A DNA stretch of 64,000 nucleotides from Erysipelothrix anatis (GTDB taxonomy: Bacteria > Bacillota_I > Bacilli_A > Erysipelotrichales > Erysipelotrichaceae): positions 1 through 64,000 of the forward strand of contig NZ_WTSX01000005.1 of assembly GCF_009828745.1 (NCBI RefSeq), written 5' to 3'. Made by a program: the position numbers and the translations under genes. Shown here in pieces: positions 30,053 through 34,521 of the stretch. Each line of letters opens with the position of its first letter. Within the stretch, counting starts at the first letter, position 1. Under the pieces are notes generated by a model that saw nothing but the letters and a program-made list of their open reading frames with translations, was not told the origin of the DNA and made no database searches.

Positions 30053-30073
30053 AAAAAAAAGGACCGGAGTCCT
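30053..30073 (-). terminator. Intrinsic terminator after ribU
   Basis: AGGAC, 4-base loop, GTCCT, followed on the minus strand by eight T; it overlaps the ribU stop codon. Confidence 0.85.
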
Positions 30074-30593
30074 ATTGAATTCTTTTTAGTGTTGGTTTAA
30101 TAAGCATAAATAAGACCATAAGTATGGTACCTTTAACGATATTGAATGGTAAGTAAACGGCATTTAGTATGTCCCATGCATTCGATTGGTCTAACCCATA
30201 CAAAGGAAATGTTACGTAATAGTTGAACACGTTCATTATTAGAGAAACGCCGACGACAGAAACAATCGTGAGTATCCCATTCTTGAATTTACGATCGGTT
30301 TTAATGAACACTACTGGAAGCATGAGTAATACCGAAAATCCAAAGTTTGCAAGTTCTCCAGCAATATTGCCATCACTTGAAATTGTTAGAAAGTGAACTA
30401 AATTTTTCAATAGCGCAATCATAAAACCTGCAAGTGGTCCCATTAACCACGCGCCAATTAAGACCGGTACATCGCTCAAATCAACTTTTAATGGCGATCC
30501 AGGTATAACCCTAAATTCAAAATAGTAAAATATCACCGACATTGCTGTAAGTATTGATATCTTCACCATAATTCGAGTGCTTAATTTTTTCAT
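30072..30593 (-). CDS. ribU: Riboflavin ECF transporter substrate-binding component RibU
   Basis: The S component that binds riboflavin and works with the shared EcfAAT module (not encoded here). 173 residues from ATG at 30593 (MKKLSTRIM) after AAGGAGG. Six membrane spans are likely; the family segment FEFRVIPGSPLKVDLSDVPVLIGAWLMGP is clear. An upstream in-frame extension enters the riboswitch and is rejected. The FMN riboswitch ahead of it supports riboflavin as substrate. Confidence 0.95.
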   Translation of the reverse strand: MKKLSTRIMVKISILTAMSVIFYYFEFRVIPGSPLKVDLSDVPVLIGAWLMGPLAGFMIALLKNLVHFLTISSDGNIAGELANFGFSVLLMLPVVFIKTDRKFKNGILTIVSVVGVSLIMNVFNYYVTFPLYGLDQSNAWDILNAVYLPFNIVKGTILMVLFMLIKPTLKRIQ

Positions 30594-30643
30594 TTTTGTC
30601 CTCCTTGTGAAAAAATAAGACTCAAGGCGACATGAAAAAACAA

Positions 30644-30752
30644 CTTCTTTCATCCAGACTATACTGTCGCCATTGGAATTTCACCAATTCAACCATCATT
30701 GATGGGTCGCGGGGTCTACCGCCGGTCGGGAATTTCACCCTGCCCTGAAGTA
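30644..30752 (-). promoter_or_regulatory. FMN riboswitch (RFN element) of ribU
   Basis: On the minus strand the conserved RFN blocks are all present: TTCAGGGCAGGGTGAAATTCC, CGACCGGCGGTA, GGTGAAATTCC and GTCTGGATGAAAGAAG. Downstream, TGTCGCC can pair with GGCGACA inside the aptamer, and CCTTG can pair with the CAAGG of the ribU SD (AAGGAGG). That suggests control of translation, with a T-rich stretch between them that could also allow termination. FMN would shut off riboflavin uptake. Confidence 0.95.
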
Positions 30753-30759
30753 CATTGTA

Positions 30760-31444: not shown

Positions 31445-31804
31445 TTATTCCTCCGTTATGTAAAGTTTGAAACTTTCGTCTTTCATTATAGCATACTCTA
31501 ATCTATATGGGATAACTCCATTTATATTTATATAGATTTTATCTTCAATTTTTTCAGCAGAAACCTGGTTTCCACTATCCTCATATGCGGTACTTTCGGG
31601 ATTTTTTCTAAAATAATTAAAGACTGTTCTTTCTATATTTAGACGTTTTTCAATCTTTTCCATATAGCTTACAGTTTCATAATACTCTTTGGATATAGAA
31701 ACTTCCCGTTTAATCCAGAAACAAATAACTGTCAAAAATATAAGACTATGTATTAAAATCATGCCACGTTGATATCGCTTCACATTTATCTTTTGTACAT
31801 ACAT
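31445..31804 (-). CDS. comGG: ComGG-like pseudopilin
   Basis: A 119-residue protein in the comGG position. It begins with a basic leader ending in QRG14 followed by a hydrophobic stretch MILIHSLIFLTVICFW, the pattern of a prepilin-peptidase substrate, but position +5 has His in place of Glu. The rest is hydrophilic with no known domain. It starts inside comGF with an overlap of about 59 bases. It would be a minor pseudopilin of the DNA-uptake pilus. Confidence 0.65.
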   Translation of the reverse strand: MYVQKINVKRYQRGMILIHSLIFLTVICFWIKREVSISKEYYETVSYMEKIEKRLNIERTVFNYFRKNPESTAYEDSGNQVSAEKIEDKIYININGVIPYRLEYAIMKDESFKLYITEE

Positions 31805-32147
31805 TCATAAGACTCCTATCAATTTGACATGTTGTTACTTCATCAATTAAAATTTCATATCCCGGTTCTTTGACTACCCGTGAATCCTTGCATGAAATAC
31901 CAAATTGTTTCTCATCAAAAGAAAAAAATATGGTGCCATTCTCGGTATTAACATTGGCTGCACGGTTTAAAAGTTGCGTAAGCTGTAGTTTAAATACTGA
32001 AATCGGGTAAATTGTTGGACGGTGAATTTTCACCATTAATATGAGGATTTGATGAATCAATATGGTAATAAGTCCCCACACTGTAAAACTTATCATGCAC
32101 TCAACTAACGTGAAACCAGCTTGAAAACATCGACGACTAACTTGAAT
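31746..32147 (-). CDS. comGF: ComGF-like pseudopilin with apparent ATT start
   Basis: The first in-frame ATG (32096) lies inside the signal region. Reading upstream in frame gives S-R-R-C-F-Q-A-G-F-T-L-V-E-C, an ideal prepilin leader (RR, then AG|FTLVE). No ATG, GTG or TTG exists between 32096 and the in-frame stop near 32200. The only initiator-like codon with a ribosome-binding site is ATT at 32147, 4 bases after GGAGG. With that start the protein has 133 residues and includes paired Cys residues typical of ComGF. A sequencing error or translational coupling from the overlapping comGE-like frame are alternatives. Minor pseudopilin role is inferred from position. Confidence 0.65.
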   Translation of the reverse strand: MQVSRRCFQAGFTLVECMISFTVWGLITILIHQILILMVKIHRPTIYPISVFKLQLTQLLNRAANVNTENGTIFFSFDEKQFGISCKDSRVVKEPGYEILIDEVTTCQIDRSLMNVCTKDKCEAISTWHDFNT

Positions 32148-32206
32148 GCACCTCCAACTATCAAAATTGCCAAAAGAAGCTCCACCATTAAGTATCCTTT
32201 ATACAC
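32105..32206 (-). CDS. Miniature ComGE-like prepilin peptide
   Basis: A 33-codon frame between comGD and comGF. With the GTG at 32206 it reads M-Y-K-G followed by YLMVELLLAILIVGG, which has the class III leader features (G, then E at +5, then a hydrophobic helix) and stops soon after the helix. A second start, ATG at 32188, has a better SD (AAAGGA) but loses the G cleavage site. ComGE in Bacillus is over 100 residues, so this is either a remnant or a very small membrane peptide. Its stop codon is inside comGF. Confidence 0.45.
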   Translation of the reverse strand: MYKGYLMVELLLAILIVGGAFKLVVDVFKLVSR

Positions 32207-32519
32207 AACGATAACGTCCAAAACCTAGTTGTATCGTACATTTTTTGTTGTTGTAATCAAAATCCCTTGCATGATTTACATTTCCGTTAGCATTAAACCA
32301 CACATCTGCAGTAACATACTTGCGTCTCAGTTTATACATCGCTTCAACTTGAAGTGTGATAATCCCTTTGTTAGCATACGGTAATTCCTTGAAAATCTGA
32401 TGGTGACTGACCATCGTTGTAACAAAGATAACAAAACTAAGTACAATTAATAGTTCGATCATCGTGAAGCCATTACTGTATTGTCGCTTGACCGTGAACA
32501 ATTTCAATATTTTTTCCAT
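32199..32519 (-). CDS. comGD: ComGD-like pseudopilin
   Basis: A 106-residue minor pseudopilin. The leader ends QYSNG followed by FTMIELLIVLSFVIFV: G at -1, F at +1 and E at +5 as needed by prepilin peptidase ComC. The C-terminal part has a Cys pair (KKCTIQLGFGRYRC) that may form a disulfide. It overlaps comGC by 47 bases. It lies in the fourth place of the comG operon. Confidence 0.8.
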   Translation of the reverse strand: MEKILKLFTVKRQYSNGFTMIELLIVLSFVIFVTTMVSHHQIFKELPYANKGIITLQVEAMYKLRRKYVTADVWFNANGNVNHARDFDYNNKKCTIQLGFGRYRCV

Positions 32520-32766
32520 CAGAACATCGTGTCTGCCTTTCTGTTATAAACTCATCTGTAACGAGATTTTGAATGGATACAGGAACTCCATCGTGCTTTA
32601 GTTGCCACTGTAAAATAGCAGCATCGATTATTTTTAGTTGTGCATCGCATCCTTTTTCATTAATTACATTCAATGTTCGTTGAATATTCGGCATTGTTAG
32701 CAACAACAATACAACAATCACCGCCATAACCAAGACCATTTCTATCAATGTAAATCCTTTTTTCAT
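32473..32766 (-). CDS. comGC: ComGC major pseudopilin
   Basis: The main subunit of the competence pilus that reaches out to take up DNA. 97 residues, with a short leader MKKG cut before FTLIEMVLVMAVIVVLLLLT (E at +5). Two Cys in the mature part (GCDAQ and TRCSDG) match the intramolecular disulfide of ComGC proteins. SD GGAGGG, ATG start, overlap of 4 bases with comGB. Confidence 0.9.
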   Translation of the reverse strand: MKKGFTLIEMVLVMAVIVVLLLLTMPNIQRTLNVINEKGCDAQLKIIDAAILQWQLKHDGVPVSIQNLVTDEFITERQTRCSDGKNIEIVHGQATIQ

Positions 32767-33701
32767 AGTCCCTCCATCAAATTGATTGGAATCAACATTA
32801 CTTGATAGTATCCATACACAGTTAATATCACAAAACCATATACAAGCAGTTTGTAAATCATGATTACACGCCCGAAATATCTACTAAGTTTCTTTGTAGC
32901 GTGACGTATGTATGAATCGAGCCCTTCTTTTTGCTTTAAAACATTTTGTTTGAATACGTAATATCTACCTAAATCCTTGTCAAAAATATCATGCGAAAAT
33001 ATTTCTTGTATGCTTTTCCCAGTTTCTAAATTGTCTAGAACGTGATATCCATACCATTTTAGGATCTCACAATTCGAGGTTTTTAGTAATGAAAACGTAT
33101 CATGAAATGAGATTGCAAAAAGTGTACTATTGCTATAGAGATTAATAATCCGTATTGTGCCCATGAGTCGATATATCCGCGAAAATTTGTTAATTATGAT
33201 TAAACTTAGTGTTGGATAAACACGCAGACTAAAACAGCAACATGCAATTATTCCAACTACGATGCAATGTATTGCTAAAATGATTGCAAATAGATTGGAT
33301 ACAGTTTCAATACTAGTACTACTCAATGCACTATCTTCCAAAAGAACACTTATCTGGTACCTTATCTGATTAGAATAAATGCTAATCATCACGATACACA
33401 CTACATGAAGAAGAATTGGATAAGCTATTTTCTGTGCAATTTCGCTGTATATTTTTTGCTTGAGTTTAATCCAAAATACATAAGATTTTAAACTAACAAA
33501 GGGATTTATAACAATACCCTCACCTTTTGCGTCCAAGCACTCATAGAGTCTCTCCAGTGAAGTAAAGTCACAACCGTACTGTGTATTGATATCTTGAATA
33601 TTCATACCGTTTTTTAAAGACTCTAGGATTTCTTCGCTTTGCATCTTCAATCGACGTTGTTCATAGATTTTCTCTAATTTTTTCCTTATCAAACATTTCA
33701 A
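32763..33701 (-). CDS. comGB: ComGB-like pilus platform membrane protein
   Basis: A GspF/PilC-type inner-membrane protein of 312 residues with three hydrophobic regions (about 92-112, 135-160, 285-307). It would form the platform for pseudopilus assembly with ComGA. The duplicated F domain is less conserved than usual. The start is TTG behind GAAGG, inside the 3' end of comGA (41-base overlap). Confidence 0.82.
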   Translation of the reverse strand: MKCLIRKKLEKIYEQRRLKMQSEEILESLKNGMNIQDINTQYGCDFTSLERLYECLDAKGEGIVINPFVSLKSYVFWIKLKQKIYSEIAQKIAYPILLHVVCIVMISIYSNQIRYQISVLLEDSALSSTSIETVSNLFAIILAIHCIVVGIIACCCFSLRVYPTLSLIIINKFSRIYRLMGTIRIINLYSNSTLFAISFHDTFSLLKTSNCEILKWYGYHVLDNLETGKSIQEIFSHDIFDKDLGRYYVFKQNVLKQKEGLDSYIRHATKKLSRYFGRVIMIYKLLVYGFVILTVYGYYQVMLIPINLMEGL

Positions 33702-34521
33702 AAAAAACCTTCACCTCTCCATTAACATCCATCTTCATTTCCTGAAGTACAACGCCTTCCAGTAATTCGCGTAAATCTTCCACACTTGCCCCCAATTCAG
33801 CGAGCCTTCGTAATGCCTGTTGTAACGTTGATGCGTGCATTGTTGCGACAATCATATGCCCACTGAGTCCTGCACGTATTAACTCAGATATATCTAGAAC
33901 GGTTCTTAGTTCTCCAAGTACAATAATATCCGGATCATGGCGCAATAGTTGCGTTAGATGAGTACCAACACATTCTGTATCGATTTGAATCCACCGTTCG
34001 TTGATCCGTTCGACCGGATTCTCTAAAGTATAAATTTGCTTGGTCTTGAGTTGTGATAGTGCATAAAACATACTTGTTGATTTTCCGCTTCCAGTTCGAC
34101 CAACAAATAAAAGAATTCCACAATTACTTTGTATGATTTCATGAATTTTGCTACGAATCGTTTTAAATGGGCATAAATCAGCCCAAAGATTACTATCATT
34201 AATGTTTAAAACTCGAGCAACACCACTGTATTTATTTGAATTGTGGATGCCCGCAAACCGTATTTGAAGGTCTTGTTCAGCAATATAGTAATGGAATACC
34301 TTCGTCTGCGGATTTGGATTTGTAATGTCAAAACCCGCGATAAACTTCAAATAGATAAATAACGCTTTCGGATCAATGTCATCTACTTTCATTACCATAT
34401 GCTTATGCTTACGTAAAACTATCTCTTGTTGTGATTCCGACCCATAAATATGAATATCACTGATTCGATGTTGAACACACTGTTTAATAAGTTGGTCGAA
34501 TTGTATCTCTATTTTAGTCAT
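33661..34521 (-). CDS. comGA: ComGA-like pilus assembly ATPase
   Basis: A GspE/PilB-type secretion ATPase of 286 residues, shorter than Bacillus ComGA. Walker A GRTGSGKST is at 141-149. The Asp box holds Glu residues in YTLENPVER, and Walker B is DPDIIVLGELR near 200, followed by the His box TMHAS. The N-terminal domain is reduced (about 55 residues shorter). Zinc Cys residues of some GspE proteins are absent. It opens the comG operon; a weak SD (AGAAG) precedes ATG. Confidence 0.9.
   Translation of the reverse strand: MTKIEIQFDQLIKQCVQHRISDIHIYGSESQQEIVLRKHKHMVMKVDDIDPKALFIYLKFIAGFDITNPNPQTKVFHYYIAEQDLQIRFAGIHNSNKYSGVARVLNINDSNLWADLCPFKTIRSKIHEIIQSNCGILLFVGRTGSGKSTSMFYALSQLKTKQIYTLENPVERINERWIQIDTECVGTHLTQLLRHDPDIIVLGELRTVLDISELIRAGLSGHMIVATMHASTLQQALRRLAELGASVEDLRELLEGVVLQEMKMDVNGEVKVFFEMFDKEKIRENL

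Follow-up and report, generated by a model that had tools for sequence, protein, structure and literature searches.

The window analyzed here is the whole 64,000-nucleotide stretch of Erysipelothrix anatis DNA (contig NZ_WTSX01000005.1, positions 1 to 64,000), which belongs to a genome of 2.19 Mb (G000) whose closest named relative found was E. aquatica (ComGF identity 88%). Its minus strand carries the genes comGA-GB-GC-GD-GE-GF-GG, followed by a gene that we take, from its sequence, to be efp (Table 1). The comGF frame opens directly after the comGD stop, while comGG gave no family match in the Pfam or NCBIfam profile searches and was placed by gene order. Nearby, an FMN riboswitch (RF00050, 110 bits) was found at 30638-30756 on the minus strand, ahead of the gene at 30072-30653, presumably a riboflavin transporter. 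A prepilin peptidase (PF01478) is present on contig C8 of the same genome, in which ComEC (PF03772) gave no match at E 0.001; the E. rhusiopathiae core genome was reported to carry comEC and dprA (PMC4906694). The operon appears ordinary as a pilus operon, and its unusual part would be a translation start.

Table 1. Features of the comG operon and of the comGF start region in the window.
Feature	Position	Strand	Basis or remark
comGA, extension ATPase	33661..34521	-	NCBIfam ATPase_ComGA E 4.5e-50, below curated cut-off; Pfam T2SSE above its cut-off
comGB, platform protein	32763..33701	-	NCBIfam T4P_ComGB E 1.1e-10, below cut-off; operon position
comGC, major pilin	32473..32766	-	NCBIfam pilin_ComGC 78.8 bits vs cut-off 75 (above)
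comGD, minor pilin; end overlaps comGE start	32199..32519	-	NCBIfam ComGD E 1.3e-6, below cut-off; gene order
comGE, 33-residue minor pilin; GTG start 32206, TAG 32107-32105; leader and one helix, no head	32105..32206	-	
comGF open frame, stop to stop; without ATG/GTG/TTG ahead of the leader	31746..32198	-	NCBIfam pilin_ComGF E 5.3e-8, below cut-off
comGG position, last operon gene before efp	31445..31804	-	Position
Shine-Dalgarno GGAGGTG of comGF, inside comGE	32149..32155	-	Sequence; identical GGAGGTG in E. aquatica
ATT named in the preliminary description	32145..32147	-	3 nt behind GGAGG; E. aquatica has TTT
GTT, candidate start giving the leader M-S-R-R-C-F-Q-A-G	32139..32141	-	9 nt behind GGAGG; common to E. 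aquatica
Out-of-frame ATG before TTTT; rival +1 frameshift start	32128..32130	-	Sequence
Gly -1 of the ComGF prepilin leader (AG^FTLVE)	32115..32117	-	Sequence
First in-frame ATG of comGF, past the leader; rival leaderless start	32094..32096	-	Sequence

ComGF was named by gene order (between comGE and comGG), its leader and a weak profile match, its scores lying below the cut-offs of both NF041002 (33.2 bits vs 80) and PF15980 (14.9 vs 27). The leader of the window sequence, RRCFQAG^FTLVE, has the residues of a prepilin (Gly/Ala at -1, Glu at +5; AG^FTLVE), and Glu5 is invariant in the 11 aligned ComGF sequences of the genus, from which L016 (cut) and L017 (interrupted) were left out. In the AlphaFold model of the mature protein (pLDDT 86, pTM 0.61), helices at 2-29 and 37-51 are followed by eight strands that form a beta head; a Foldseek search of the PDB with this model gave no match at E 0.001 or better. 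Between the window and E. aquatica, omega was 0.22 for comGF (region after the first ATG), compared with 0.12 for GA, 0.15 for GB, 0.04 for GC, 0.11 for GD and 0.41 for GG, and the compared comG genes showed no indels between the two. Judged from these ratios, ComGF is under purifying selection. A tip complex GD-GF-GE-GG has been modelled (PMC10790768), and ComGF residues important for DNA uptake have been reported (PMC12040237).

For the comGE position, a preliminary description of this DNA had claimed a 33-codon frame with a leader and one helix only, and the sequence agrees: the leader (YKG^YLMVE) and a single hydrophobic helix make up all 33 residues, and a globular head after the helix is absent. 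The family match is weak (NF041013, E 0.2, 11.8 bits vs a cut-off of 49), and the gene was assigned by position and leader. In the Erysipelothrix survey 13 genus genomes matched and 12 loci were whole (L016, cut by a contig end, was excluded); ComGE consists of 29-38 residues, with a leader and one hydrophobic helix, in 12/12 of these. Its start overlaps the comGD end by eight bases in 11 of the 12 according to the script (GTG in ten, ATG in one), and in L015 a GTG at the comGD end was read by eye. In L010, L012, L014 and L017 the cleavage site follows C, H or F, not G. Across the wider order ComGE was called in 85 of 110 loci (calls > 110 residues excluded), with 25-78 residues after the cleavage site (median 55). 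Truncation was rejected as an account of the mini-ComGE, which is conserved across the 12 whole genus loci, ComGE being short (≤ 30 residues after cleavage) also in 9 of the 85 order loci. Between the window and E. aquatica, comGE has an omega of 1.18, calculated on 2 synonymous and 7 replacement changes only, and the replacements are conservative. Position and conservation suggest that the mini-ComGE works as ComGE, and it would then be a minor pilin cut to little more than its helix.

Upstream of the first comGF ATG (32096-32094) the frame reads ...CIQVSRRCFQAGFTLVEC-M and lacks ATG, GTG and TTG, as had been claimed, and the strain comparison proposed at the time finds the same open frame without NTG in E. 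aquatica. Since 34 codons without NTG are not rare by chance (rough estimate 0.18), the weight lies on the encoded leader, on the frame being common to E. aquatica, and on the 26 of 122 loci found to be alike (below). An indel that would restore a longer ComGE or a standard ComGF start, also considered in the preliminary description, is unlikely, as the separate E. aquatica assembly has the same frames. The start proposed there, an ATT behind the GGAGG (32155-32151, minus strand), is present but sits too close to it and is not conserved in E. aquatica, and was therefore rejected as a secure start for the window. Between the stop and the ComGF leader, E. aquatica contains no AUN codon at all, ATT included, and a far-upstream in-frame ATA in the window (32195) has no Shine-Dalgarno. 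The GTT is better placed, being the best Shine-Dalgarno-aligned codon in the window (L005) and in E. aquatica (L006), and in both a G as its third base would create a TGA within comGE. The codon serving in the window is a choice between two candidates, GTT at 32141-32139 (right distance, common to E. aquatica) and ATT at 32147-32145 (better codon, wrong distance, not common), of which GTT should be a much poorer start codon.

Within Erysipelothrix, an ATG lies close ahead of the leader in 5 of the 12 loci (L009, L010, L012, L014, L017) and a TTG in one (L011). Three further species (L008, L013, L015) have ATT and no NTG: in L008 and L013 the ATT follows Shine-Dalgarno runs of 6 and 8 at a distance of 7 nt, and in L015 an ATC-ATT overlaps the comGE stop, 8 nt behind an AGGGGG seen by eye (a run of only 3 in the script). 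In L007 the choice is between a CTG, spaced 7 nt downstream of GGTGGTGAT, and an upstream ATG that has no Shine-Dalgarno. Apart from the starts, the comGF frame of L017 is interrupted after about 80 codons and continues in another frame, its relatives having intact copies, and a second ComGF-like pilin match occurs in four Erysipelothrix genomes (G003:C1:24713-25087, G009:C10:35560-35955, G010:C3:9143-9517 and G012:C17:238864-239268).

Across the order Erysipelotrichales, an NF041002 profile search matched 209 of 294 genomes, with 0/294 passing the curated cut-off. For the analysis of starts, 110 order loci were hand-picked, not drawn at random, mostly as the best-scoring among the matches listed, leaving out partial matches, second matches of a genome and G262 (stop inside the match). 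Leaders were located by motif, so that loci with an unusual leader may be missed, and the start was called as the canonical codon with the best Shine-Dalgarno plus a bonus for ATG. No NTG was present within 30 codons of the leader in 21 of the 110 comGF frames. One of these (L052) is without any AUH codon, and the other 20 hold ATA (13), ATT (4) or ATC (3), each preceded at 8-10 nt by a Shine-Dalgarno run of 4-9 bases, with Gly -1 and Glu +5 kept in 20/20. An in-frame TGA lies upstream in all 20, only one or two codons before the AUH in 19, so that little else could serve as a start. As a control, leader frames of the same loci lacked NTG in 0/142 cases of GC/GD-type and 0/96 of GE-type (a class that includes some comGD frames), compared with 20/99 for GF.

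When order and genus were taken together, window and E. aquatica included, 26 of 122 loci had no NTG. An AUH codon stands behind a Shine-Dalgarno run of at least 5 in 21 of these 26, against 5/26 and 9/26 for the other two frames, and the codon best aligned to the Shine-Dalgarno at a spacing of 7-10 is AUH in 20/25, compared with a background of 42 in 917 leader codons, a comparison whose binomial value takes no account of relatedness. AUH starts occur in 12 genera, the window's genus among them. On a quick ComGF tree (121 rows; tree tests of start class left out L005, L006 and L052) the start class needs at least 8 changes, and 200 shuffles never gave fewer than 17. Eight additional loci all had NTG ahead of the leader. 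In four loci of genus g20 (L020, L023, L045, L051), a Shine-Dalgarno run of 5-6 is followed after 6 nt by an ATA that may be a further AUA start; this ATA lies just before ATGs with runs of 3-4. Unusual initiation of ComGF, as the preliminary description had suggested, is a well-supported reading of these sequences at family level, although the specific ATT that it named is not. The order-wide AUH rule itself does not reach the window's own clade, given that E. aquatica has no AUN codon.

Most AUH starts of the order fall inside comGE and in the +1 phase. In this register a ComGE codon begins with the second and third bases of the start triplet, so that any NTG gives TGN (Cys, Trp or stop). 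For the 28 NTG starts in this phase the ComGE codon is always TGG (17), TGT (9) or TGC (2); with the 21 AUH starts, ComGE receives Tyr (13), Ser (3), Leu (3) or Phe (2). The ratio of AUH to NTG is 21:28 in the +1 phase vs 3:68 elsewhere (Fisher 2e-7, ignoring descent; one of the three AUH outside +1 is L005, counted via the mis-picked far ATA), and at genus level it is 12:14 vs 3:44 (1e-4, ignoring descent). The tree (118 rows for this test) provides 8 supported independent pairs, which are too few, as at least 6 pairs that differ would be needed; on average the start agrees with phase in 1.6 of them, contradicts it in 0.0 and shows no difference in 6.3 (median p 0.5). An interplay of the overlapping frames, also put forward in the preliminary description, is partly supported by a start region in a comGE phase costly for NTG.

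Searches with NF041002 over the window's class and phylum gained few loci beyond the order. No NTG was found within 20 codons in 34 of 126 Bacilli rows; in 31 of them an NTG appears when 40 codons are considered, and these were kept out of the non-NTG count. The remaining three are L193, L199 and L224. L224, a Bacilli comGF frame without NTG ahead of the leader (open for 25 codons), lies outside the Bacillus genus searched. In that genus, to which G1151 belongs, 44/44 genomes match NF041002 above the cut-off, and among the loci examined (one per genome) 11 have no NTG between the in-frame stop and the leader and an ATC behind AGGAGG (L193, L297, L299, L300, L301, L303, L308, L310, L311, L316 and L199), with ATT-ATC instead of a single ATC in L299 and L199. 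The remaining 33 hold NTG in the open frame. The 11 ComGF sequences have Asn, not Glu, at +5. We take these genomes to be the B. subtilis group, with L300 as B. subtilis or near; in B. subtilis the annotated ComGF begins within the membrane helix and lacks a leader. Six of the 11 loci were phased and start in comGE phase +2, hence the overlap argument does not explain their ATC.

With a probability of roughly 0.7, we consider ComGF to be a working minor pilin that is translated from a weak non-NTG codon inside the mini-ComGE gene, behind a strong Shine-Dalgarno. The initiator tRNA would read AUA, AUU or AUC, and IF3 would hold down the amount of ComGF made, as would befit a tip subunit required in small numbers. 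The cause may lie in the +1 overlap, in which an NTG would force TGN into ComGE while AUA, AUU and AUC would allow Tyr, Phe/Leu and Ser. More tentatively, and with some doubt, the identity of the ComGF start codon could be set by overlap coding with ComGE throughout, with lineages alternating between ATG (Trp/Cys) and AUA/AUU (Tyr/Phe/Leu), the window's clade caught at GUU as GUG would stop ComGE, and B. subtilis ComGF made from AUC.

It is quite possible, if somewhat short of an even chance, that the non-NTG start is instead kept as a regulatory throttle, i.e., for an IF3-sensitive low expression of the tip pilin, and that the comGE overlap is incidental. The GTC of sigR is regulated in this way and the AUA/AUU starts of S. 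aureus lower expression (PMC5472188, PMC13009471); in addition, the Bacillus AUC lies in phase +2, where ATG gives ComGE Glu or Asp in most ATG loci seen, and the tree offers too few independent pairs to back the overlap rule. The distribution of AUH starts in the order speaks for the overlap, as 21/24 are in phase +1 and only 1/37 of the phase +2 starts is AUH, and the comGC, comGD and comGE frames checked all retain NTG.

An unlikely alternative is that ComGF starts at the in-frame ATG 32096 by reinitiation past the comGE stop, which would yield a leaderless membrane protein. This ATG is the first canonical codon, the one a standard ORF caller would pick, and the comGE TAG (32107-32105) ends 8 nt upstream of it, a usual coupling distance, but the invariant Glu5 of the 11 genus sequences and the Gly -1 and Glu +5 of the 20 AUH loci would be pointless if untranslated, and in 5/12 loci of the genus the leader is preceded by an ATG. 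Gene decay, another suggestion of the preliminary description, does not hold up well, and a competence operon decaying in this clade, with the loss of the ComGF start as an early step, seems quite improbable. It would accommodate the missing AUN start of E. aquatica, the ComEC search (PF03772) without a match in the window genome and the interrupted comGF of L017, yet the mini-ComGE and its start are conserved genus-wide, the prepilin peptidase is present, and the low omega of comGF and the values for GA to GD and for GG, together with the lack of indels, argue for maintained genes. For the window and E. aquatica, a ComGF start at the out-of-frame ATG 32130 with a +1 shift on TTTT, giving MFQAG^FTLVE, is highly improbable. 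The site ATG-TTT-T-CAA is identical in both species, where it precedes the +1 codon by 16 nt and permits exact re-pairing, and L013 has a comparable ATG-TTT-T 43 nt ahead of that codon. Against this, L013 also has a well-placed ATT, the nine remaining loci of the genus show nothing of the kind within 60 nt, the leader would be without basic residues, and we know of no precedent for a frameshift at codon 2. A ComGE-ComGF fusion by -1 frameshift was rejected, no X-XXY-YYZ heptamer being present in the comGE frame in either the window or E. aquatica; by reasoning only, a hairpin of two helices would also leave the head within the cell. Read-through from comGD was likewise rejected: comGD and comGF share a frame in the window, but a second in-frame stop is present between them in E. 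aquatica.

Few genes have been reported to carry natural non-NTG starts. The present case is a single pilin gene that seems to rely on them again and again, in one order and in the B. subtilis group; standard gene callers would then truncate a pilus-tip protein and drop its leader, and comGF/comGE would be a case where an overlapping gene may dictate the start codon. In the titles, abstract beginnings and some passages of the open papers searched, no paper on a non-NTG comGF start was found, and no term beginning with comG occurs in the main text of PMC13009471. The described cases include the infC ATT/ATC and sigR GTC starts, which are repressed by IF3 (PMC5472188), the ATT of B. subtilis infC (PMC6097659), the AUU of pcnB, cited as another IF3-discriminated start (PMC5472188, PMC13009471), and, in S. 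aureus, infC AUA, ccpN AUA and cvfC1 AUU, with an extended Shine-Dalgarno and an output of about 10% of AUG in poor medium and, for ccpN, up to 30% in rich medium (PMC13009471). The comGF starts resemble these IF3-discriminated starts (infC, ccpN/cvfC1, sigR) in their non-NTG codon and the S. aureus cases also in the extended Shine-Dalgarno and the conservation in relatives; the starts of sigR and infC, moreover, are often misannotated (PMC5472188, PMC13009471). They differ in that comGF is a pilin gene, that its starts are found in 12 genera of one order and mostly inside another gene, and that they are known from sequence alone.

With regard to the pilus itself, S. pneumoniae ComGE likewise overlaps neighbour genes, its E5A variant nearly abolished pili, and it was suggested to lean on its N-terminal helix (PMC8727766), which fits the helix-only ComGE of Erysipelothrix; the S. 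pneumoniae constructs, however, reach residue 86 (PMC8727766), compared with the 33 residues in all here. The Com pilus of streptococci and B. subtilis shares with the operon in the window the gene set GA to GG, class 3 leaders and a Glu5 in all but ComGG, and, in S. pneumoniae, the overlapping pilin genes (PMC8727766, PMC10790768), whereas here ComGE is reduced to a leader and a helix, and the ComGF start would not be NTG.
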